DNA of 64,000 nt, taken from assembly GCA_022821145.1 (NCBI GenBank), contig JAJEEE010000070.1, positions 1-64,000 on the forward strand, read 5' to 3'. The DNA is from Acidobacteriota bacterium. Its GTDB lineage: Bacteria > Acidobacteriota > Terriglobia > 20CM-2-55-15. The notes beneath the pieces are model-generated. The model made no database searches. It was not told the origin of the DNA and saw only the letters and a list, made by a program, of their open reading frames with translations. Below, in pieces: positions 3,747 to 13,208 of this stretch; within the stretch, counting starts at the first letter, position 1, and each line of letters starts with the position of its first letter. The translations under genes and the position numbers were made by a program.

Positions 3747-4043
3747 TCAGATCGGGACCTTGCGGTCCTCGAACGCTTTCTTCCAGAAGTAGACTTCGAC
3801 CTTCTCGCGCAGGCCGTTCGTCCAGAACGGATCGGTCGCGTAGATGGCCTCGACGGCGGCCCGGCTGTCGGCCTCGACGATCCAGAGGCCGCCCAGGGAT
3901 TCCCCGTCGACGTCCGGCCGGAGGGAGCCGGGCACGAGCACCGTGTCCTTGTTCGCCTCGAGCCACTCCAGGTGGGCGGGGAACAGTTGCTGGCGCAGCT
4001 CGCCCACGCCGGGCTTGTCGGTGAAGCGGGCGATGAAGAGCAT
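3747..4043 (-). CDS. YciI-like protein
   Basis: 98-residue protein of the YciI/dimeric alpha-beta barrel type. It starts MLFIARFTDKPG and has the family-type PAHLEWLEAN helix (His 24), the GGLWIVEADS strand and the ATDPF segment before the C-terminal strand. YciI-like proteins are small cytoplasmic proteins, some with dehydrochlorinase- or muconolactone-isomerase-like folds. It is the last gene of the minus-strand operon, five bases after the cupin gene, which suggests a role in the same, probably catabolic, pathway. Substrate unknown. ATG 4043 was chosen because the longer frame upstream overlaps the cupin gene in a different frame. Confidence 0.75.
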   Translation of the reverse strand: MLFIARFTDKPGVGELRQQLFPAHLEWLEANKDTVLVPGSLRPDVDGESLGGLWIVEADSRAAVEAIYATDPFWTNGLREKVEVYFWKKAFEDRKVPI

Positions 4044-4048
4044 GCCGG

Positions 4049-4393
4049 CTACTTCGGAATCTGACGGACCACGAGTTGGAACAGCTTGAGCGATTGGCCG
4101 TCCGCGGCGCGGATCGAGGCGCCCTCGCCGGGGCCGAGGTAGACGCCCATGCCCCGGGACGCGTCGTGGCTTCGGCCGGCGAGCGTGATGCTCCCGGCCC
4201 CGTCCATCAGGTAGATCAGTTGGTGATCGTCCGACGCCCGGGCCTCGAACTCCTGGCCGGAGCTCAGCCAGCGAAGCGTGCCGACGACGTTCTGCGCGCC
4301 GGCCAGCTCGTTGTTGAGGATCTCGGTGAAGTCGCCGTTCGGCGTCGCGTGCCGGTCCAGCGCGTTCGTGTCGATGAAGAGCGTCTTGGGCAT
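4049..4393 (-). CDS. Cupin-fold protein with incomplete metal motif
   Basis: 114 residues, MPKTLFIDTNALDRH, with a single cupin-like beta barrel around residues 30-105 (LRWLSSGQEFEA, LIYLMDGAGSITLAG, GVYLGPGEGASI). The usual first cupin motif with two histidines is not present; only one His (DDHQ) lies in that region, and the late His is also absent. It may therefore bind a ligand without a metal, or be a degenerate partner of the adjacent complete cupin. It is 12 bases downstream of that cupin and five bases before the YciI gene, in one operon. Function not assigned. Confidence 0.65.
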   Translation of the reverse strand: MPKTLFIDTNALDRHATPNGDFTEILNNELAGAQNVVGTLRWLSSGQEFEARASDDHQLIYLMDGAGSITLAGRSHDASRGMGVYLGPGEGASIRAADGQSLKLFQLVVRQIPK

Positions 4394-4405
4394 GTCGGTT
4401 CCCGC

Positions 4406-4822
4406 CTACGTTTGAACCCACACGCTCCCGTCGACGCGGTTCCACCGCAGGTCGTCGGGCGTGCCGTCCAGGATCGTCGTCTTGAAACGGTTCGGGGCCT
4501 GGAACTCGAAGTAGAACAGCGGCTCGTCGGTCGAACGGAGGCGGTGCTTGGCCTCGGCCGGGATGAACACCATCGTGCCGGGGCCGACGTCCCGGACGCC
4601 GTCGGGCGTTTCGACCGTGCCTTTGCCTTCCATGATGAAGTAGAAGTGCTCGCAGTTCTCGTGAAGGTGGAACGGCGAGGAGGCCCCCTTCTCGTAGTTC
4701 ATGATCCCGGCCAGCATGTTGTCGGTGTCGGCCAGCTCCTTGTTCACGAAGAACGTCCGCTTGCGGCCCGGCACCGCCGACACGAGGTGCGGCAGCTCGT
4801 CCTGGTGAAATATGTAGGCCAT
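4406..4822 (-). CDS. Cupin-2 domain protein with complete metal site
   Basis: 138 residues with a full single-domain cupin. The first motif is FHLHENCEHFYFIMEGKG (His, His, His, with Glu between), then GPGTMVFIPAEAKHRL supplies the last His. Such proteins bind Fe, Ni, Zn or Mn and act as small dioxygenases, isomerases or decarboxylases. The N-terminus (YIFHQDELPHLVSAVPGRKR) is hydrophilic with no signal peptide, so it is cytoplasmic. It lies 20 bases after the E2 gene in the dehydrogenase operon, so it may process the same substrate. The reaction cannot be read from sequence. Confidence 0.75.
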   Translation of the reverse strand: MAYIFHQDELPHLVSAVPGRKRTFFVNKELADTDNMLAGIMNYEKGASSPFHLHENCEHFYFIMEGKGTVETPDGVRDVGPGTMVFIPAEAKHRLRSTDEPLFYFEFQAPNRFKTTILDGTPDDLRWNRVDGSVWVQT

Positions 4823-4842
4823 GGTCGATCTCCTCCGGTCGA

Positions 4843-6039
4843 TCAGTCGTTCGTTGCGAGGCCGAAGGCGCCCGGATCTCCGATCGCCTCGGCCAGGTCG
4901 TTGAGGAACGCGGCGGCCTGCGCGCCGTCCACGACGCGATGATCGCTCGACAGCGTGATGGTCATCATCGGGCGGACGCCGGGCCGCCCGTCCACGGGAA
5001 CGACGCGGTCCGCGATCTTGCCGACCGCCAGTATGCCGGCCTGCGGCGGCACGATGATCGCCGTGAACGCGTCGATCCCGTACATCCCCAGGTTGCTGAT
5101 CGTGAACGTGCCGCCCGCGACGTCGGAGGGGAGCAGGCGTCCGGCCCGCGCGCGCTCGGCCATGTCCCGCCGCCGGACGGCGACATCGCCCAGCCCGGCC
5201 GTGTCCGCGTCGGGAACGACGGCCGCGACCACGCCGTCCTCCACCGCCATCGCGACGCCGACGTTGATACGTTCGTTGGCGCGGATTCCCTGACCCTCCC
5301 AGCTCGCGTTCATCTTGGGGTGCCGCGCCAGCACGCGCGCGGCGAGCGCGACCAGCAGATCGGTGTGCGTGAGCTTCACGCCGTGTCGGTTCTGTATGGC
5401 CGGCTTCAGCGCCTCGCGGTGCGCGTCGAGCGCGCCGGCGTCCACCTCGCGAACCAGGAAGAAGTGCGGTGCGCGGGTCCAGCTCTCGGTCGTGCGCTCG
5501 GCCATCAACCGGGCCACCGCGCTCGGCGGGGGCGCGCTTGCGGTCGCCTCGCCGGCGGATTGCGCCGCGGCGAGAACGTCGTCGCCCGTGATCGCCCCGT
5601 CCGGACCGGTTCCCTGGACATCGTCCAGGTCGACGCCGTGCTCGGCGGCCAGCCGGCGCGCCTTGGGCGAGATCTTCCCCCGGCGGGACGCGGAGGCGGG
5701 TCGGGGCGCGGCCGGTTCCGGACTGGACGCCGCCTCGACGGGCGCGGTGGACATGGCGCGGCCGGTGGCCATGGCGGCCTCTTCCGCCGGCGGCTCTTCG
5801 CCCGGCGCGACGATCCAGGCGATGGTCTGTCCGACGGGGACTTCGGCTCCCGCCTCGGCCTTGACGCCGGCCAGGACGCCGTCGGCGTTGGCCTCGACCT
5901 CGACCGTGGCCTTGTCGGTCTCGACCTCGAGAAGCGGCTCGCCCTTCGCGACCGGGTCGCCTTCCTGCTTGAGCCAGGAGACGACCGTGCCGGTTTCCTG
6001 CGCCATCTCCAGCGCGGGCATCACGACGCTTTTCGCCAT
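4843..6039 (-). CDS. 2-oxoacid dehydrogenase complex, dihydrolipoamide acyltransferase (E2)
   Basis: 398 residues with the classical E2 order. A lipoyl domain spans residues 2-77 with the lipoylated lysine in VETDKATVEV (K43). An Ala/Pro/Glu-rich linker follows, then a peripheral subunit-binding domain at about 120-157 (ISPKARRLAAEHGVDLDD). The catalytic acyltransferase domain ends in SSDHRVVDGAQAAAFL, holding the HRxxDG catalytic motif. It passes an acyl group from lipoate to CoA in a cytoplasmic complex with E1 alpha/E1 beta encoded upstream. Only one lipoyl domain is present, as in acetoin or branched-chain type complexes. It is ten bases after the M24 gene. No E3 gene is visible in the window. 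Confidence 0.9.
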   Translation of the reverse strand: MAKSVVMPALEMAQETGTVVSWLKQEGDPVAKGEPLLEVETDKATVEVEANADGVLAGVKAEAGAEVPVGQTIAWIVAPGEEPPAEEAAMATGRAMSTAPVEAASSPEPAAPRPASASRRGKISPKARRLAAEHGVDLDDVQGTGPDGAITGDDVLAAAQSAGEATASAPPPSAVARLMAERTTESWTRAPHFFLVREVDAGALDAHREALKPAIQNRHGVKLTHTDLLVALAARVLARHPKMNASWEGQGIRANERINVGVAMAVEDGVVAAVVPDADTAGLGDVAVRRRDMAERARAGRLLPSDVAGGTFTISNLGMYGIDAFTAIIVPPQAGILAVGKIADRVVPVDGRPGVRPMMTITLSSDHRVVDGAQAAAFLNDLAEAIGDPGAFGLATND

Positions 6040-6049
6040 CGAGCGCCCG

Positions 6050-7414
6050 CTACTCCGTCACGGGGACCCGCTCGGTCCGCGCGCTGGCCTCGATCATCTC
6101 CAGCACGCGCGTGCTGGGCGCCGGCTCGTGCTCGCGCGTCTTCGGCAGGGGCCCCTTGACCGTGTGGTAGCTCGGACCGGCCACCATCAGCTCCTCGGCC
6201 GGGAACCGGGTGATCACCTCGTGGCCGGTTTCGGTCACGACGATCTCCTCCTCGATGCGCGCGGCGCTCCAACCGTCGGACGACGGCCAGAACGTTTCCA
6301 GGGCGAACACCATGCCCGGCTTGATCTCCTGCGGGTGGTCCAGCGAGACCAGGCGGCTGATCACAGGTTTCTCCCAGATCGCCAGCCCGATGCCGTGTCC
6401 GTACTGGAGTCCGAAGCACGACTCCTCGTTCGGGAACCCGAACTCCTGGGCCCGCGGCCAGACGGCCGCGATCTCGCCCGTCGTCCGGCCCGGCCGGACC
6501 AGCTCGATCGCCGCGTCCAGGTACTCCCGGCAACGCTTGTAGGCGTCGACCATGGCGTGCGAGCCGTAGTTGATCATGAAGCACCGGTAGTAGCAGGTCC
6601 GGTAGCCCATGTAGGAGTGGAGGATGTCGTAGTAGACCGGATCGCCGGGCCGCAGGACGCGGTCCGAAAAGATGTGCGGGTGCGGGTTGCAGCGTTCGCC
6701 CGAGATCGCGTTGACGGCCTCCACGTACTCGGAACCGAGGTCGTAGAGCGTCTTGCTCGCCAGCGCGACCGCCTGGCTCTCCATCATGCCGGGCTTCATC
6801 GCCTCGTAGATCTCGTGGTAGGCCGCGTCGACCATCATCGCGGCGTGGTTGAGCAGCGAGATCTCGTCCTCGGTCTTGATGACGCGGGCGTCGGAGAGGA
6901 TCTGCTGGCCGTCGACCAGCTTCAGGCCCTCCCGCTCCAGGGCGAACCAGACCGGGGGCTCGACGATGTCGATGCCGACCGGCTCGTTGTGAAGCCCGCG
7001 CTTCTCGAGCTGTTCCTTGATCTTTCTGGCGACGTCCTCGGCGATGCCCATCTCGGGAGAGATGGCGCCCCGAAGCAGCGAGATCCCGGCGCGCGAACGG
7101 GGTTCCCCGAACTCGTCGTCGCCCAGCCACGGGCAGTTCAGCTCGTGATGCTTGGCCGCCGACCCGAAGTCCCACAGGATCGGCTCGCCGCCCTGCGGCA
7201 GCAGGGAGAAGCGGCTGACCTTGTCCTGCGCCCAGGCGCCGATGTTGGTCGACGTCAGGTAGCGCACGTTGTTCATGTCGAAGCAGAGCAGCGAGCCCAT
7301 CCCGGACTTCGCCAGCTCCGCTTTCGCCTTCTCCAGGCGCTCGCGGCGCAGCCGGTCGAAGTCGATGCGCTGTTCCCAGTCGACCTGCGTGGATCCATGA
7401 GTCTTCAAAGCCAC
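6050..7414 (-). CDS. M24 (pita-bread fold) aminopeptidase-like protein lacking one metal ligand
   Basis: 454 residues, cytoplasmic. The N-terminal domain (to about 170) is the creatinase/prolidase type (FDMNNVRYLTSTNIGAW) and the C-terminal domain is M24. The first metal Asp is present in GDPVYYDILHSYMGYRTCYY, but the second, eleven residues later, is Cys. The metal His (QYGHGIGLAIWEKP), Glu (VFALETFW) and Glu (RIEEEIVVT) are retained; the second His usually found four to six residues after HGIG is Trp. It may be a non-peptidase such as the creatinase- or DddP-like M24 members; I cannot choose. GTG start at 7414 with GGGGG six bases upstream. It sits between the E1 and E2 genes. Confidence 0.8.
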   Translation of the reverse strand: MALKTHGSTQVDWEQRIDFDRLRRERLEKAKAELAKSGMGSLLCFDMNNVRYLTSTNIGAWAQDKVSRFSLLPQGGEPILWDFGSAAKHHELNCPWLGDDEFGEPRSRAGISLLRGAISPEMGIAEDVARKIKEQLEKRGLHNEPVGIDIVEPPVWFALEREGLKLVDGQQILSDARVIKTEDEISLLNHAAMMVDAAYHEIYEAMKPGMMESQAVALASKTLYDLGSEYVEAVNAISGERCNPHPHIFSDRVLRPGDPVYYDILHSYMGYRTCYYRCFMINYGSHAMVDAYKRCREYLDAAIELVRPGRTTGEIAAVWPRAQEFGFPNEESCFGLQYGHGIGLAIWEKPVISRLVSLDHPQEIKPGMVFALETFWPSSDGWSAARIEEEIVVTETGHEVITRFPAEELMVAGPSYHTVKGPLPKTREHEPAPSTRVLEMIEASARTERVPVTE

Positions 7415-7589: not shown

Positions 7590-8591
7590 CTACCCGCACA
7601 TCGCCTCGGCCGCCTCGCACACGGTTTCCTCGGTGGGCACCGTGGCGTCCTCCAGCGGCGGCGAGAAGGGAATCGGCACGTGCATGGCGCCGATCCGCTT
7701 CACGGGCGCCTCGAGATCGAAGAACGCCTGCTCGGCGATCACCGACGCGATCTCGGCCATCACGCCGTATCGCCCGTACCCCTCGTCCATGACGATCGCG
7801 CGCGACGTCTTGCGGACCGATTCCAGGATCGTGGTCTCGTCCAGCGGCCACAGCGTGCGCGGGTCCACGACTTCGGCGCCGATGCCGCGCTCGGCCAACC
7901 GCCCCGCGGCGCCGAGCGCCACCTGGACCATGCTGCTTGTGGCGACGATCGTGATGTCGTCGCCCTCGCGCTTGACGTCGGCCGCGCCGAGCGGGATGGT
8001 GTAGTCCTCCTCCGGGACCGGCCCCTTCAGCTTGTACATCATCTTGTCTTCGAAGAAAGCCACGGGGTTCTCGTCCCGGATCGCCGACTTCATCAGACCC
8101 TTGGCGTCATACGGCGTCGAGGGCAGGACGACCTTCAGGCCCGGTACGTGGCAGAACCATGCGTGCAGCGATTGCGAGTGCTGCGCCGCCGACCGCCGCG
8201 TGGCCCCCATCGTCGTGCGCATCACCATCGGGACCTTCCACTTGCCCCCGGACATGTAGTGGATCTTCGCCGCCTGGTTGACCATCTGGTCCATCGTCAG
8301 GCCGATGAAGTCGCCGAACATGATGTCGACGACCGGGCGCAGGCCGGTCATCGCCGCGCCGACGGCGATTCCCGTGAAGCCGGGCTCGGAGATCGGCGTG
8401 TCCAGGACGCGGTCCGGCCCGAACTCCTCCACCAGGCCGGTCAGGACCTTGAAGACCGTGCCCGCCTCGGCGATGTCCTCGCCGAGGATCAGCACGCGGG
8501 AGTCGCGCCGCATCTCCTCGGCCAGCGCCTCGCGGATGGCGTCTCCCAGCGTCAACTGCCGGACGACGGTTTCGGTTTCAGGCATAGACAT
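7590..8591 (-). CDS. 2-oxoacid dehydrogenase E1 beta subunit (transketolase-like)
   Basis: 333 residues. It has the Pyr domain of thiamine-diphosphate enzymes (LILGEDIAEAGTVFKV, TPISEPGFTGIAVGAA) and the C-terminal transketolase domain (ITIVATSSMVQVAL, EVVDPRTLWPLD). With E1 alpha it forms the heterotetramer that decarboxylates a 2-oxoacid or cleaves acetoin and loads the acyl group onto lipoyl-E2. Glu in SEPGF is the conserved ThDP-activating residue. ATG 8591 was chosen because GAGG lies nine bases upstream; ATG 8585 is an alternative. The start overlaps the end of the E1 alpha gene, so the two are probably translationally coupled. Pyruvate, acetoin or branched-chain acids are all possible substrates. 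Confidence 0.9.
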   Translation of the reverse strand: MSMPETETVVRQLTLGDAIREALAEEMRRDSRVLILGEDIAEAGTVFKVLTGLVEEFGPDRVLDTPISEPGFTGIAVGAAMTGLRPVVDIMFGDFIGLTMDQMVNQAAKIHYMSGGKWKVPMVMRTTMGATRRSAAQHSQSLHAWFCHVPGLKVVLPSTPYDAKGLMKSAIRDENPVAFFEDKMMYKLKGPVPEEDYTIPLGAADVKREGDDITIVATSSMVQVALGAAGRLAERGIGAEVVDPRTLWPLDETTILESVRKTSRAIVMDEGYGRYGVMAEIASVIAEQAFFDLEAPVKRIGAMHVPIPFSPPLEDATVPTEETVCEAAEAMCG

Positions 8592-9567
8592 CGTCGTCCA
8601 CCTCGTCAACCGACGGATACGGCGCGTTCTTGGCGAACTCGACGGCCCGCGCGACGTCCGCGCTCACCTCGGCGTCGATCGCGTCCAGACCGGCCGGATC
8701 CGCCGCCTGCTCGGCGATCAGGGCCTCGCCCAGGAGCCGGATCGGGTCGCGGTGCGTCTTCCATTCGCTTTCCTCGTCCTTGGACCGGTAGTACTCGCGG
8801 CTGACGTCGCCGACGTGGTGTCCCATGAACCGGTACGTGTCGCACAGGAGGAACGACGGCCCCTCGCCGGCCCTCGCGCGCGCGACCTGCCCGCGGGCGG
8901 CGGAATGGACGGCGCGCGCGTCCTGGCCGTCGACGCGTTCTCCGGGCACGCCGAAGGCGGGGCCGCGGGTCATGATGTCGCCGGCCAGGGTCTCCGAGTT
9001 GTGCGTGTACTCATTGTAGAGGTTGTTCTCGCACACGTAGACGACGGGCAGCTTCCACAGGGCGGCCATGTTCATCACCTCGTAGACCAGCCCCTGTCCC
9101 AGCGCGCCGTCCCCGAAGAAGCAGACCGCGACCTGACCCGTGCCGAGCCGCAGGGCCGAGAAGGCCGCCCCCGTGGCGATGCCGGCGCTGCCGCCGACGA
9201 TCGCGTTGGCGCCCAGGTTGCCGGTGTCCGGATCCGCGATGTGCATCGAGCCGCCCTTGCCCTTGCAGTAGCCGGCGCGCTTGCCGAGCAGCTCGGCGAA
9301 CATGCGATCCAGCTCGGCGCCCTTGGCCAGGCAATGACCGTGGCCGCGATGGGTGCTGGTGATGTAGTCGTCCGGGGCGAGAGCCTCGCACACGCCCACG
9401 GCCACGGCTTCCTCGCCGATGTAGAGGTGGGCGAGGCCGGGCATCAGCGCCCGCGTATACAGGTCGTTGGCCTCTTCCTCGAACCGCCGGATCATCAGCA
9501 TCCGCCGGTACATGCGAAGCCACCGGTCGAGTGCGGCGTCGGTGCGGGTGGGGGCGGCCTGTGTCAT
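8578..9567 (-). CDS. 2-oxoacid dehydrogenase E1 alpha subunit
   Basis: 329 residues with the E1 alpha fold. The chain starts with the RMLMIRRFEEEANDLY helix, then THRGHGHCLAKG and KGKGGSMHIAD. The thiamine-diphosphate/Mg motif runs GDGALGQGLVYEVMNMA to CENN. The sequence is closest in style to acetoin dehydrogenase (AcoA) or pyruvate dehydrogenase alpha, and the length fits. First gene of the minus-strand operon; its ATG is preceded by GGGAGTG. It diverges from the MetE-like gene at 9846 with 278 bases between them, so regulation of this catabolic operon should act there. The exact substrate is not determinable. Confidence 0.9.
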   Translation of the reverse strand: MTQAAPTRTDAALDRWLRMYRRMLMIRRFEEEANDLYTRALMPGLAHLYIGEEAVAVGVCEALAPDDYITSTHRGHGHCLAKGAELDRMFAELLGKRAGYCKGKGGSMHIADPDTGNLGANAIVGGSAGIATGAAFSALRLGTGQVAVCFFGDGALGQGLVYEVMNMAALWKLPVVYVCENNLYNEYTHNSETLAGDIMTRGPAFGVPGERVDGQDARAVHSAARGQVARARAGEGPSFLLCDTYRFMGHHVGDVSREYYRSKDEESEWKTHRDPIRLLGEALIAEQAADPAGLDAIDAEVSADVARAVEFAKNAPYPSVDEVDDDVYA

Positions 9568-9785
9568 GCGATCACTCCCAAAACCTGTTGCAATACTTCA
9601 ATTACGGTGGCGAAGTCGCTCTATCGCAAAGCGCAGGGCCCTCCGCGCCCCGTGACGGCAACCGTCGCGCCGGTGACGGCGCCGACGTGATTCGCCGCGG
9701 GGCTACTACATAAACAGAAGTCGTTCGGGCCTGTCAAGGCCGCGCGGGGGGAGGGGCAGGGTACCCATTGCCGGCCCTGTTGACG

Positions 9786-9791
9786 TATACT
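9786..9791 (+). promoter_or_regulatory. Possible -10 element (TATACT) of the MetE-like A gene
   Basis: TATACT lies 55 bases before the ATG at 9846 in a 278-base divergent gap that otherwise shows no gene. No convincing -35 hexamer is found at 16-18 bases, so this is weak. I looked for a cobalamin, SAM or other riboswitch in the gap and saw none. Confidence 0.25.
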
Positions 9792-9845
9792 CCGTGGCTT
9801 CGGGAGCAACCGAGACCGCGGAGACAGACCAGGAGAAGACAGACA

Positions 9846-10952
9846 ATGGCGAAGAAGATCGTAGACACCATCCTTCCGACGACGATGGTCGGCTCGTATC
9901 CCCGGCCCCACTGGTTCAAGCACCAGTTGCTCGGCCGGGACGTCCGGGTGGCCTTCAAGGAGGTCGAGCACGAGGAAGCCTACGAGGACGCCGTGGCCAC
10001 GGTGATCCGGGACCAGGAGGAAGCCGGCCTGGACATCACCACCGACGGCAACATGTGCTACGACGACTACATCGGCGCGATCGGCGCGTTCTGCTGGTAC
10101 ATGTACGAGCGGATCCCGGGATTCGAGCCCGCCCGCGAGCCGCACCCGATGGCCGTCGGCGCCGAGACGCAGGACAAGGGCACCGTGCTGCTCGACGACT
10201 GGGGCGGCGTGATCAACAGCGGGCCGGTCAGCCGCGGGACGATGCGCCTGACCGACCTGTTCAAGATCGCCAACCGGCACGCCCGGACGCCGATGAAGGT
10301 GTCGGTCGGCGCCGGACCGGGCAACCTGGCCTGGCACGTCTACTTCCAGCACTACAAGGACCCCCGGGAGTTGAGCCTGGCCCTGGCCCCGATCTTCAAC
10401 CAGGAGATGAAGGAGCTGGCCGCGGCGGGCGCCGAGTACATCCAGATCGAGGACCTGGGTGCGTGGTTTCCCCTGTTCACCAGCAACGACGGCGACTACG
10501 AGTGGATGAAGGAAACCATCGCGATCTGCTGCGACGGGGTCGATGCGAAGATCGGATGGCACTTCTGCTTCGGCAACGCCTGGGGGAACGACATCATCAG
10601 CGAGAACTTCCCCCAGGGCTACCAGACCGTGCTGCCGCACTATTGGGACACGCCGGGCATCGACCAGTTCGTCCTGGACTACGCCAACCGCGAGATGAAC
10701 GGCATCGAGTTCCTCGAGAACCTGCCCGCGGACAAGGACGTGCAGGTCGGCGTCGTCGACATCCGGACCAGCATGGTCGAATCGCCCGCCAAGATCGCGG
10801 GTCGGATCCGCCAGGTGCTGAAGCACGTGTCGCCGGAGCAGGTGACGTTGAGCACCGACTGCGGCATGAAGCCGCTGTCGCGGATGGTCGCCAAGATGAA
10901 GCTGAAGGCCCTGGCCGAAGGCGCCGCCATCGTTCGCGACGAGATCAGCTAG
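9846..10952 (+). CDS. MetE C-terminal-type methyltransferase-like protein A
   Basis: 368 residues covering only the C-terminal (zinc, homocysteine) half of cobalamin-independent methionine synthase. The N-terminal GSYPRPHWF motif is typical of this half. Candidate zinc ligands are H239 and C241 (GWHFCFGN), D278 in FVLDYANRE where paralogues have Glu, and C339 (STDCGMKPLS). The usual IQIDEP motif is replaced by IQIEDLGAW. These proteins use a zinc-bound thiolate to accept or donate methyl groups. Start ATG follows AGGAG. First of a plus-strand trio with the NmrA and MetE-like B genes. Whether it makes methionine or moves methyl groups in catabolism is unknown. Confidence 0.75.
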   Translation: MAKKIVDTILPTTMVGSYPRPHWFKHQLLGRDVRVAFKEVEHEEAYEDAVATVIRDQEEAGLDITTDGNMCYDDYIGAIGAFCWYMYERIPGFEPAREPHPMAVGAETQDKGTVLLDDWGGVINSGPVSRGTMRLTDLFKIANRHARTPMKVSVGAGPGNLAWHVYFQHYKDPRELSLALAPIFNQEMKELAAAGAEYIQIEDLGAWFPLFTSNDGDYEWMKETIAICCDGVDAKIGWHFCFGNAWGNDIISENFPQGYQTVLPHYWDTPGIDQFVLDYANREMNGIEFLENLPADKDVQVGVVDIRTSMVESPAKIAGRIRQVLKHVSPEQVTLSTDCGMKPLSRMVAKMKLKALAEGAAIVRDEIS

Positions 10953-11038: not shown

Positions 11039-11986
11039 ATGGCCGACAAGAAAGTCATCGCCGTGGTCGGGGCCACGGGCTCGCAAGGCAGCGGACTCGT
11101 CCGCGCGATCCTGAACGACGGCGAGTTCGCGGCGCGGGCGATCACGCGGGACGTCAACAGCGAAAAGGCGCGGGCGCTCGCGGCGGCCGGCGCGGAAGTC
11201 GTCGCCGCCGACCTCGACGACGCCGGGAGCGTCGAACGGGCGTTCGCGGGCGCCCACGGCGCGTATTGCGTCACGTTCTTCTGGGCGCATTTCTCCACGG
11301 CGAAGGAGAACGAGCACGCGCGGAACATGGCGAACGCGGCCCGGGCCGCCGGCGTCGAACACGTCGTCTGGTCCACGTTGGAAGATACGCGGCAGTGGCT
11401 GCCCGTCAGCGACCCGCGGATGCCGGCGCTCCAGGAGAAGTACAACGTTCCCCACTTCGACGCGAAGGGGGAGATGGACCACGTGTTCACCGACATGGGG
11501 TTGCCGGTCACCCTGTTCCGGACGTGCTTCTACTGGGACAACATGTACATGTTCGGGATGGGGCCGCAGAAGGGCGAGGACGGTTCATACGCCATCACGT
11601 TCCCGTTGGGCGACCATTCCTTTCCCAGCATCGCGGCCGAAGACATCGGCCCCTGCGCGCTGGGCGTCTTCAAGGGCGGCCAGGCTCATGTGGGTCAGAC
11701 GGTCGGGATCGCCGGCGAGATCTTCAACTGCCACACGATGGCGGCCACGCTGTCGAAGGTCCTGGGCGTCGACGTCGGTTACAACGCCGTGCCCCCGGAC
11801 GTCTACCGCGGGTTCGGTTTCCCGGGCGCCGACGACATCGGCAACATGTTCCAGACGTGGGCCGATTTCGAGAGCGCCTACGTCGGAGCCCGCAGCCTGG
11901 AGTTGACGCGCGCGCTGCACCCCGGGGTCCAGTCCTTCGAGCAGTGGCTCGTCAAGTACAAGGACAAGGTCCTGCCGGCCACCTAG
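11039..11986 (+). CDS. NmrA-family NAD(P)-binding protein
   Basis: 315 residues with an atypical short-chain dehydrogenase Rossmann fold. The nucleotide-binding loop is GATGSQGSGLVRAIL near the N-terminus. It continues with a dinucleotide-dependent region (VVWSTLED) and an NmrA-like C-terminal part rich in Trp/Phe. The catalytic Tyr-x3-Lys of classical SDRs is not obvious, which is normal in NmrA proteins; many are redox sensors rather than enzymes, and some reduce quinones. ATG 11039 is preceded by GGAGGAGAG. It lies 86 bases after MetE-like A and 76 before MetE-like B, all on one strand. Confidence 0.8.
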   Translation: MADKKVIAVVGATGSQGSGLVRAILNDGEFAARAITRDVNSEKARALAAAGAEVVAADLDDAGSVERAFAGAHGAYCVTFFWAHFSTAKENEHARNMANAARAAGVEHVVWSTLEDTRQWLPVSDPRMPALQEKYNVPHFDAKGEMDHVFTDMGLPVTLFRTCFYWDNMYMFGMGPQKGEDGSYAITFPLGDHSFPSIAAEDIGPCALGVFKGGQAHVGQTVGIAGEIFNCHTMAATLSKVLGVDVGYNAVPPDVYRGFGFPGADDIGNMFQTWADFESAYVGARSLELTRALHPGVQSFEQWLVKYKDKVLPAT

Positions 11987-12062: not shown

Positions 12063-13208
12063 ATGCAGACCAGCACCGACCGGATTCTGACCACGCACGT
12101 GGGAAGCCTGCCGCGCCCGCAGGAGGTCGTCGACCTGCTGTTCGCCCAGGAACGGGGGGACGAATACGACGCGCGGTCGTTCGACGAGACGATGCAGGCG
12201 TCCGTCTCCGACGTGGTGCGGCGGCAGGTGGACGCCGGCATCGACATCGTCAGCGACGGCGAGACCAGCAAAATCAGCTACGCCACGTACGTGCGCCACC
12301 GGTTGGGCGGCTTCGAGCCGGGCAACGTGCCGCGGGCGACGCCCCAGGACCTGGACGACTTTCCGGAATACCGCGACCGGATCGCGGCCGCGGGGATCAC
12401 GCCCAAGTACCTGCGCCCCATCTGCAAGGGGCCGGTCACGGTCAAGGACCGGAAGCCGCTCGAGGACGACATCCGGAGGATGCGCACCGCCCTGTCCGGG
12501 GTGGACTGCGTGGAAGCCTTCGCGCCGTCGGTTTCGCCCGGGACCGTCGCGGTGTTCCAGCCGGACGAGTACTACGATTCCTACGAGGCCTACCTGATGG
12601 GCATCGCCGACGCGATGCGCGACGAATACGAGGCGATCGTCGATGCGGGTTTTGTGCTCCAGCTCGACTGTCCCGACCTGGGCATGGGGCGGCACATCCG
12701 TTTCCGCGACGCCGACGAGGATACGTTCGTCCGGAACGCGCACGTTCAGGTCGAGGCATTGAACCACGCCCTCGAGAACGTACCGCCGGAGCGCTCGAGG
12801 TTGCACGTGTGCTGGGGTAACTACGAGGGGCCCCACACGCGCGACGTCCCGCTGGTGAAGGTCCTGCCGGCGTTGCTGGAGTCCAGGGTCGGAGCGTTGA
12901 TGATCGAGGCCGCGAACCCCCGCCACGAGCACGAATGGGAGCTGTGGAAAACGACGCCGCTGCCGGAGGACATGATCCTGATCCCGGGCGTGCTGGACTC
13001 GACGTGCAACTTCGTCGAGCACCCCGAGCTGGTGGCCCAACGCCTGGTCCGCTTCGCGGACATGGTCGGCCGGGAACGCGTGATCGCGGGTACGGATTGC
13101 GGCTTCGGCACGTTCGCCGGGTTCGGCGCCATCCATCCGTTGATCTGTTGGGAGAAGCTCCGCTCGCTCGCCGAGGGCGCGCGGATCGCGACCCGCCGGC
13201 TCTGGTAA
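12063..13208 (+). CDS. MetE C-terminal-type methyltransferase-like protein B
   Basis: 381 residues, COG0620/YxjG-like. The N-terminal motif HVGSLPRPQEV is present. All four zinc ligands are present: H248 and C250 (HVCWGN), E282 (MIEAANP) and C346 (GTDCGFGTF). Instead of IDEP it has LQLDCPDLGMG, the pattern of the YxjG branch. Family members use methyl donors for thiol acceptors; the natural methyl donor of short forms without the N-terminal folate half varies. It is cytoplasmic and third in the plus-strand trio. Function in methionine or in C1 catabolism is not settled by sequence. Confidence 0.8.
   Translation: MQTSTDRILTTHVGSLPRPQEVVDLLFAQERGDEYDARSFDETMQASVSDVVRRQVDAGIDIVSDGETSKISYATYVRHRLGGFEPGNVPRATPQDLDDFPEYRDRIAAAGITPKYLRPICKGPVTVKDRKPLEDDIRRMRTALSGVDCVEAFAPSVSPGTVAVFQPDEYYDSYEAYLMGIADAMRDEYEAIVDAGFVLQLDCPDLGMGRHIRFRDADEDTFVRNAHVQVEALNHALENVPPERSRLHVCWGNYEGPHTRDVPLVKVLPALLESRVGALMIEAANPRHEHEWELWKTTPLPEDMILIPGVLDSTCNFVEHPELVAQRLVRFADMVGRERVIAGTDCGFGTFAGFGAIHPLICWEKLRSLAEGARIATRRLW

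Follow-up and report, generated by a model that had tools for sequence, protein, structure and literature searches.

A cysteine-substituted family of M24-fold proteins encoded beside a pyruvate dehydrogenase-like complex

Introduction

Enzymes of the M24 fold are textbook dinuclear metallohydrolases. The two metals of methionine aminopeptidase are bridged by the second Asp and the last Glu of the site, and the first Asp binds the second metal only. The fold also includes non-peptidases, among them creatinase, a C-N hydrolase that is metal-free, and the catabolic ectoine hydrolase DoeA; we know of no pyruvate dehydrogenase (PDH)-like complex in ectoine gene clusters. Another is the DMSP lyase DddP, whose metal ligands are given as Asp295, Asp297, Asp307, His371, Glu406 and Glu421 in PMC4108388.

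The window analysed here comprises 64,000 nucleotides of contig JAJEEE010000070.1 from an Acidobacteriota bacterium. A preliminary description based on the sequence pointed out an M24 protein with a Cys in place of a metal Asp, encoded within a 2-oxoacid dehydrogenase operon, and raised the question of whether the gene always accompanies such operons. Among the literature matches listed, in a search covering little of the subscription literature, neither a Cys-type M24 family nor an M24 gene beside a 2-oxoacid dehydrogenase is described. The data presented below support a functional tie between the M24 protein and the dehydrogenase.

Results

The M24 gene lies inside a PDH-like operon

The operon is on the minus strand and reads E1 alpha, E1 beta, M24, E2, two cupin-like genes and a YciI gene, which agrees with the earlier placement of the M24 gene between the E1 and E2 genes. 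E1 alpha (8578-9567; PF00676, 2.7e-74) is PDH-like, scoring 215 bits against human PDH E1 alpha vs. 114 bits against the branched-chain (2-oxoisovalerate) E1 alpha, and is below the PDH equivalog cut-off (345 vs. 394 bits). E1 beta (7590-8609) matches PF02779/PF02780 and scores 400.5 bits with the subfamily model NF006667 (cut-off 321). The E2 protein (4843-6039), assigned by its domains and motifs, has a lipoyl domain (ETDKA) and the catalytic motif DHRVVDG. With E1 alpha, E1 beta and an E2 that carries both the lipoyl Lys and His-x3-Asp, this is a 2-oxoacid dehydrogenase operon resembling those of the pyruvate and acetoin dehydrogenase complexes, from which it differs in having an M24 gene inside; no E3 was identified among the operon genes of the window. 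A branched-chain oxoacid complex was rejected because the E1 is nearer to PDH. The window genome contains a second E1 beta (48% identity), so the complex of the operon is probably not the housekeeping one.

The remaining operon genes encode a cupin (4406-4822), present in 6 of 80 genome-contig loci with M24, a small cupin-like protein (4049-4393) that accompanies the first cupin in its loci, and a YciI-like protein (3747-4043; the PF03795 match is to a longer ORF, 3747-4445). Around the operon, the plus strand has a gene for a LigM/DesA-type THF-dependent aromatic O-demethylase (728-2098; NF047885, 606.6 bits, cut-off 580; PDB 5tl4, 531 bits) and two MetE-C-like genes plus an NmrA-like gene (9768-10952, 11039-11986 and 12063-13208). 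Together, these plus-strand genes look like methoxy-aromatic catabolism with methyl transfer. The LigM gene is found in 5 of the 80 genome-contig loci, including the near-identical L008 (98% identical locus). The variant of the locus with LigM and cupin genes is represented by the window, L017, L020, L026 and L086, and genes for a 3-hydroxyisobutyrate dehydrogenase (HIBADH)-type enzyme and a semialdehyde dehydrogenase (ALDH) are retained in L017, L026 and L086. The window genome (4.18 Mb, 89 contigs) has no close HIBADH partner (best match 31%), and its best ALDH match (51%) is located elsewhere than the operon.

A Cys occupies the position of the second metal Asp

The M24 ORF (7414-6050, minus strand) has a GTG start and encodes a full-length protein of 454 residues that belongs to PF00557 (124.9 bits, cut-off 23; E=4.8e-36; model positions 3-208 of 208). 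HMM alignments place Cys274 (TGC, 6593-6595; motif GYRTCYYRCF) opposite Asp307 of DddP and a metal Asp of the proline dipeptidase 3q6d. The first metal Asp, Asp263 (6626-6628), is aligned to both DddP and 3q6d and forms a D-x10-C spacing with the Cys, and His340 (6395-6397), Glu373 (6296-6298) and the second metal Glu, Glu388 (6251-6253), aligned to 3q6d, are likewise in register with the remaining M24 metal ligands. The preliminary description, which had the first Asp kept, the second replaced by Cys and the later His-Glu-Glu ligands intact, was therefore correct on all of these points. We take the position of Cys274 to be that of the metal-bridging Asp in methionine aminopeptidase. Since DddP Asp307 is a monodentate ligand, with Asp295 and Glu421 bidentate, in PMC4108388, the bridging role is drawn from methionine aminopeptidase alone.

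Other parts of the active site are distinctive as well. His245 (6680-6682) and His247 are invariant in the core family defined below and lie roughly where M24 peptidases have their first catalytic His; the catalytic His of 3q6d aligns with Pro246, one position away from either. Trp347, seven residues past the metal His, occupies the position of the second catalytic His of prolidase, and several invariant Tyr and Arg residues (Y271, R272, Y275, Y276, R277) surround the site. A structure prediction from 29 related sequences gave a mean pLDDT of 61, with values below 50 for residues 227-285, which include Cys274.

In a scan of NCBIfam, 12 models were matched by the protein and none at its cut-off, the best being DddP (NF043017) with 115 of 600 bits. 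A PDB profile search gave nothing at 1e-40; matches come from a repeat at 1e-10 and include the known non-peptidase C-N hydrolases ectoine hydrolase and creatinase. The catalytic domain and the first Asp, His, Glu and Glu are shared, in register for 3q6d, with Xaa-Pro dipeptidase/aminopeptidase P (PDB 3q6d, 1pv9, 1a16), from which the protein differs by the Cys and, in most core members, by the Trp. Similarity to ectoine hydrolase (PDB 6twj), likewise a catabolic non-peptidase enzyme, amounts to 76.6 bits with TIGR02993 (cut-off 613), and creatinase (PDB 1chm, 7yto) has the same fold and a weak match to the family profile (58 bits for 7yto), with the ligand residues kept in the present protein. 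We are thus dealing with an M24-fold protein that lacks the complete Asp, Asp, His, Glu, Glu set of an active M24 metallopeptidase, its second Asp being Cys, and that also falls outside DddP and DoeA. It is probably not a peptidase. The preliminary description named creatinase-like and DddP-like proteins as known non-peptidases of the fold and proposed that this one may make or use the substrate of the dehydrogenase, which stands as a candidate role; identity with DddP is not supported, and creatinase is a distant relative only.

How far the resemblance to DddP extends to its chemistry is a separate matter. DddP (PDB 4b28, 4rzy, 4s00, 4s01) is the closest named family, aligning over nearly the whole length (131.7 bits for 4s01) with the first Asp, His, Glu and Glu at equivalent positions, and it provides a precedent for a metal-dependent M24 lyase (PMC4108388). 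The present gene differs in lying beside a PDH-like complex. A related lyase could employ one or two metals, with the Cys bridging or terminal, to polarise a carboxylate; Asp263 or a Tyr would take the proton, the leaving group would be eliminated, and the unsaturated product would pass to the dehydrogenases. The invariant Tyr and Arg residues near the site would suit such a reaction. However, of the DddP ligands listed in that source, Asp307 is replaced by Cys and Asp297 has no counterpart, since it lies within an insertion relative to the window protein; the score is far under the DddP cut-off as well. We consider a lyase of this type unlikely, but it is an alternative to be taken seriously.

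The Cys is conserved from Acidobacteria to haloarchaea

The Cys is present in 81 of 81 sequences, i.e. the window protein and 80 of 215 genome-contig relatives (74-98% identical), which were found with six search patterns, one of them containing the Cys motif, and whose records are mostly named Acidobacteria or acidobacterial groups, with a few Chloroflexi. The possibility that it is a sequencing error or a local mutation, which the preliminary description had allowed for, is ruled out by this retention. The complete set of Asp, Cys, His, Glu and Glu occurs in the window protein and in all 122 aligned relatives scoring at least 560 bits, from Acidobacteria, Chloroflexota, Actinomycetota and Rhodobacterales. 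These same 123 proteins are our core group; because they were picked by the Cys, its count is true by construction, which does not apply to the other positions, where the first Asp, His245, His340, Glu373 and Glu388 are each found in 123 of 123. Such a site is not decayed, and a pseudoenzyme was rejected because the other ligand residues are retained. The replacement of the nearby catalytic His by Trp, also noted earlier, is accurate for the window but not general: the position is Trp in 110 of the 123 core proteins and His in 13, which include Rhodobacterales.

Beyond the genome contigs, plasmid homologues in Rhodococcus, Streptomyces, Paenarthrobacter and Rhodobacterales are 54-60% identical to the window protein, and all eight haloarchaeal homologues examined have the motif GYRSCYYRTF and thus the Cys, with Tyr at the Trp347 position in four tabulated proteins. 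Matches at 1e-80 occur in at least 9 of 247 genomes from the window's phylum, its own genome counted, and matches at 1e-40 in at least 44 of 251 genomes drawn from the phylum to which the Chloroflexota locus L085 belongs, Asp types counted; these tallies are lower bounds, as few candidates per genome were scored. The search profile (A1) was built from Cys members only, yet it also returned Asp members. No relative was found in the viral contigs scanned with the family profile and two other M24 proteins. One M24 match on a Chloroflexi contig (L082, 4445-5761) has an in-frame stop codon and was excluded from alignment A2.

Variant metal sites and at least two origins

After removal of identical copies and of proteins aligned over less than 330 positions of the profile, 154 distinct proteins could be compared at the five ligand positions. 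Most read DCHEE (130), followed by DDHEE (13), DCHEG (4), SCHEE (3), ECGHE (2), NCHEE (1) and DEHVE (1). A 48-row tree, made with the Cys column removed, requires a minimum of two Asp/Cys changes; it contains long branches and lacks DddP itself and nine Chloroflexota core loci (identical sequences under other names). One change maps to the base of a 27-row clade of bacteria and haloarchaea (support 89/99, not starred), and the other falls within a group bearing a DddP-like DxD motif. In this second group, L191-L194, from genomes of the window's phylum, have the Cys motif GYFFCVSR, keep the first Asp and have Gly instead of the last metal Glu; their close relative L190 retains both Asp and Glu. 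The rows with the DxD motif (L108, L109 and L190-L194) are outside the large Cys clade, which, with DddP absent from the tree, also counts against a DddP-like lyase.

If the Cys produces a mononuclear site, the dispensable ligand is expected to be the first Asp. It is Ser in L172, L174 and L180 and Asn in L170, with Cys, His, Glu and Glu intact, and these four distant relatives would fit conversion of a dinuclear site into a mononuclear one. The rule is not clean. In L191-L194 it is the last Glu that is missing, with the first Asp in place, and in L175/L176 the changes extend beyond the first Asp: there, Asp is replaced by Glu, the motif is CYDRTF, and the His/Glu region is altered, with an ambiguous alignment in which the His position reads differently from the tree analysis. 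In the core family, where the first Asp is invariant, it probably has a catalytic task.

The same variants bear on whether a metal is needed at all. Cys274 might be a catalytic nucleophile or a structural thiol in an enzyme that, like creatinase, works without metal, and both the creatinase precedent and the retention of the Cys throughout the family are compatible with this. Metal-free members would be expected to lose their ligands, but His340, Glu373 and Glu388 are invariant in the core, and the other four residues stay in the four distant members that lack the first Asp. We therefore regard a metal-free enzyme as rather improbable.

Linkage to E1 genes is strong in the core family

Neighbours in unannotated loci were assigned by ORF scoring and by tblastn with reference proteins. 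E1 genes (tblastn, 1e-15) are near the M24 gene in 94 of 104 core loci: 75 of 80 in the genome-contig sample, 7 of 9 in the bacterial plasmid sample (9 of 26 bacterial rows listed at 54% identity or more) and 12 of 15 in the Chloroflexota sample (15 of 34 places at 594 bits or more). This count excludes L190-L194 as well as the acidobacterial L098-L102, all five of which have E1. Among more distant relatives, E1 is near M24 in 0 of 19 loci (0 of 9 extended Cys types and 0 of 10 Asp types), whose median lengths of 17.5 kb and 17.0 kb, respectively, compare with 13.3 kb for the core genome-contig loci; five of these distant loci (L172, L173, L178, L179 and L180) are short (5-11 kb). The ten core loci without a nearby E1 are L019, L036, L083, L084, L086, L088, L095, L153, L154 and L163, and six of them span at least 13 kb. 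To the question of whether the gene is always next to E1/E2 genes, the answer for E1 is that it usually is near them in the core, these ten loci excepted, but not in most haloarchaeal loci or in those of the more distant relatives.

This pattern makes it very improbable that the protein is an ordinary Xaa-Pro peptidase with a tolerated Cys and an accidental operon position. The plasmid records do name the bacterial homologues 'Xaa-Pro peptidase family protein', but the linkage separates the core from the more distant relatives, the Cys is retained from Acidobacteria to haloarchaea, and none of the matching NCBIfam peptidase models reaches its cut-off with this protein.

Gene order varies between groups. 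It is E1 alpha-E1 beta-M24-E2 in Acidobacteria and part of the Chloroflexota, M24-E1 alpha-E1 beta in other Chloroflexota, M24-E1 alpha-E1 beta-lipoyl-ALDH-E2 in Rhodobacterales, and HIBADH-M24-ALDH-VOC-fused E1-E2 in Streptomyces. With E1 separate in some loci and fused in others, the linkage is not solely due to the shared descent of one block. The M24 protein is among the best conserved operon products, its best segments being 74-82% identical compared to 73-87% for E1 beta and mostly 50-65% for E2 (L008 excluded). This similar conservation, together with the fact that E1 is the commonest partner gene, could mean that the M24 protein has the complex rather than a metabolite as its target, with an amidase or processing-peptidase action on, for instance, E2 or its lipoyl arm. 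We find this improbable, because no E1 is near M24 in the ten core loci listed above and in 6 of 8 haloarchaeal loci, the same M24 family accompanies separate and fused E1, and the linked transporters and dehydrogenases resemble a catabolic pathway.

Of the eight haloarchaeal loci, two have E1 nearby and six have a gene whose annotation reads TPP-binding protein. The one such protein scanned, from L105, is acetolactate-synthase-like (299 bits, cut-off 538). On the haloarchaeal plasmids L093, L105, L106, L107, L202 and L203, the M24 gene and the TPP-binding-protein gene are accompanied by varying EthD, HD, VOC, RidA, cupin and LLM genes. It is possible that these plasmid clusters constitute an archaeal version of the pathway.

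Partner genes suggest catabolism

After E1, a HIBADH/tartronate-semialdehyde-reductase-type gene is present in 63 of the 80 genome-contig loci, a GntR regulator in 52, ALDH in 39 and DctA in 22. Branched-chain-type ABC transporters adjoin M24 in the Chloroflexota loci L085, L087, L155 and L156 and in Paenarthrobacter L089. Of the genes that recur near M24, none was identified as an aminotransferase; L105 carries one.

Several neighbours belong to or resemble C-N hydrolase families, each kind seen in one locus only. L018 has genes for both nitrile hydratase subunits (alpha and beta; 4410-5686) between E1 beta and M24, with scores above the NCBIfam cut-offs, an amidohydrolase of the TRZ/ATZ kind is encoded in the E1-less L154, and an amidase is annotated near L089; near the non-core loci L174 and L170 are a caprolactamase-like gene (548 bits, below the cut-off of 1000) and an arylformamidase-like gene (84 bits, below the cut-off of 223), respectively. 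Ureide breakdown was considered as the pathway in view of a bicupin cluster near relatives in 4 of the 80 loci, and was rejected because the matches to ureidoglycine aminohydrolase are too weak, at 37 bits or less for the two bicupins scanned (cut-offs of at least 200); the L154 bicupin had no match at 1e-12.

Discussion

How might the M24 protein and the dehydrogenase work together? We tentatively favour, at somewhat less than even odds, a catabolic non-peptidase M24 enzyme with a mononuclear Cys/His/Glu/Glu site that carries out C-N cleavage and feeds a dedicated PDH-like complex. In such an enzyme, the Asp-to-Cys replacement would turn the dinuclear site into a mononuclear one holding Zn or Fe(II), and Asp263 would be freed to serve as a base or second-shell residue. 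The substrate would be a small non-peptide compound, with an amide, amidine or lactam-like C-N bond as the most likely point of cleavage. The product may then be processed by the neighbouring dehydrogenases, and the resulting 2-oxo acid or acyloin would be the substrate of the E1/E2 complex.

The neighbouring C-N hydrolase genes provide circumstantial support for C-N chemistry of the M24 protein. On the other hand, two observations are against the favoured C-N reading: the best-scoring named relative, DddP, is a lyase, and the LigM and cupin genes of the window suggest aromatic compounds. Pantothenate breakdown, for which the gene classes (amidase, dehydrogenases, ALDH and oxoacid dehydrogenase) would fit, was entertained as an idea only; the PDH-like E1 counts against a branched oxo acid and hence against this pathway, and no gene for pantothenate breakdown is named among the literature matches listed.

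Taking the family as a whole, it is conceivable, though we hold this more loosely, that one Asp-to-Cys change remodelled an entire M24 branch of bacteria and archaea to a mononuclear thiolate site, that the core members act early in a catabolic pathway not yet described, which has a PDH-like complex of its own, and that a second Asp-to-Cys change in the DddP-like group was accompanied by loss of the last Glu. Whatever the reaction, the family offers a natural Asp-to-Cys switch, spread from soil bacteria to haloarchaea and with at least two origins on the tree, and with it a ready experiment on metal number and reaction type within one fold. If the favoured reading is true, names such as 'Xaa-Pro peptidase' and 'M24 metallopeptidase' in plasmid records would conceal a route of catabolism that supplies a dedicated PDH-like complex.
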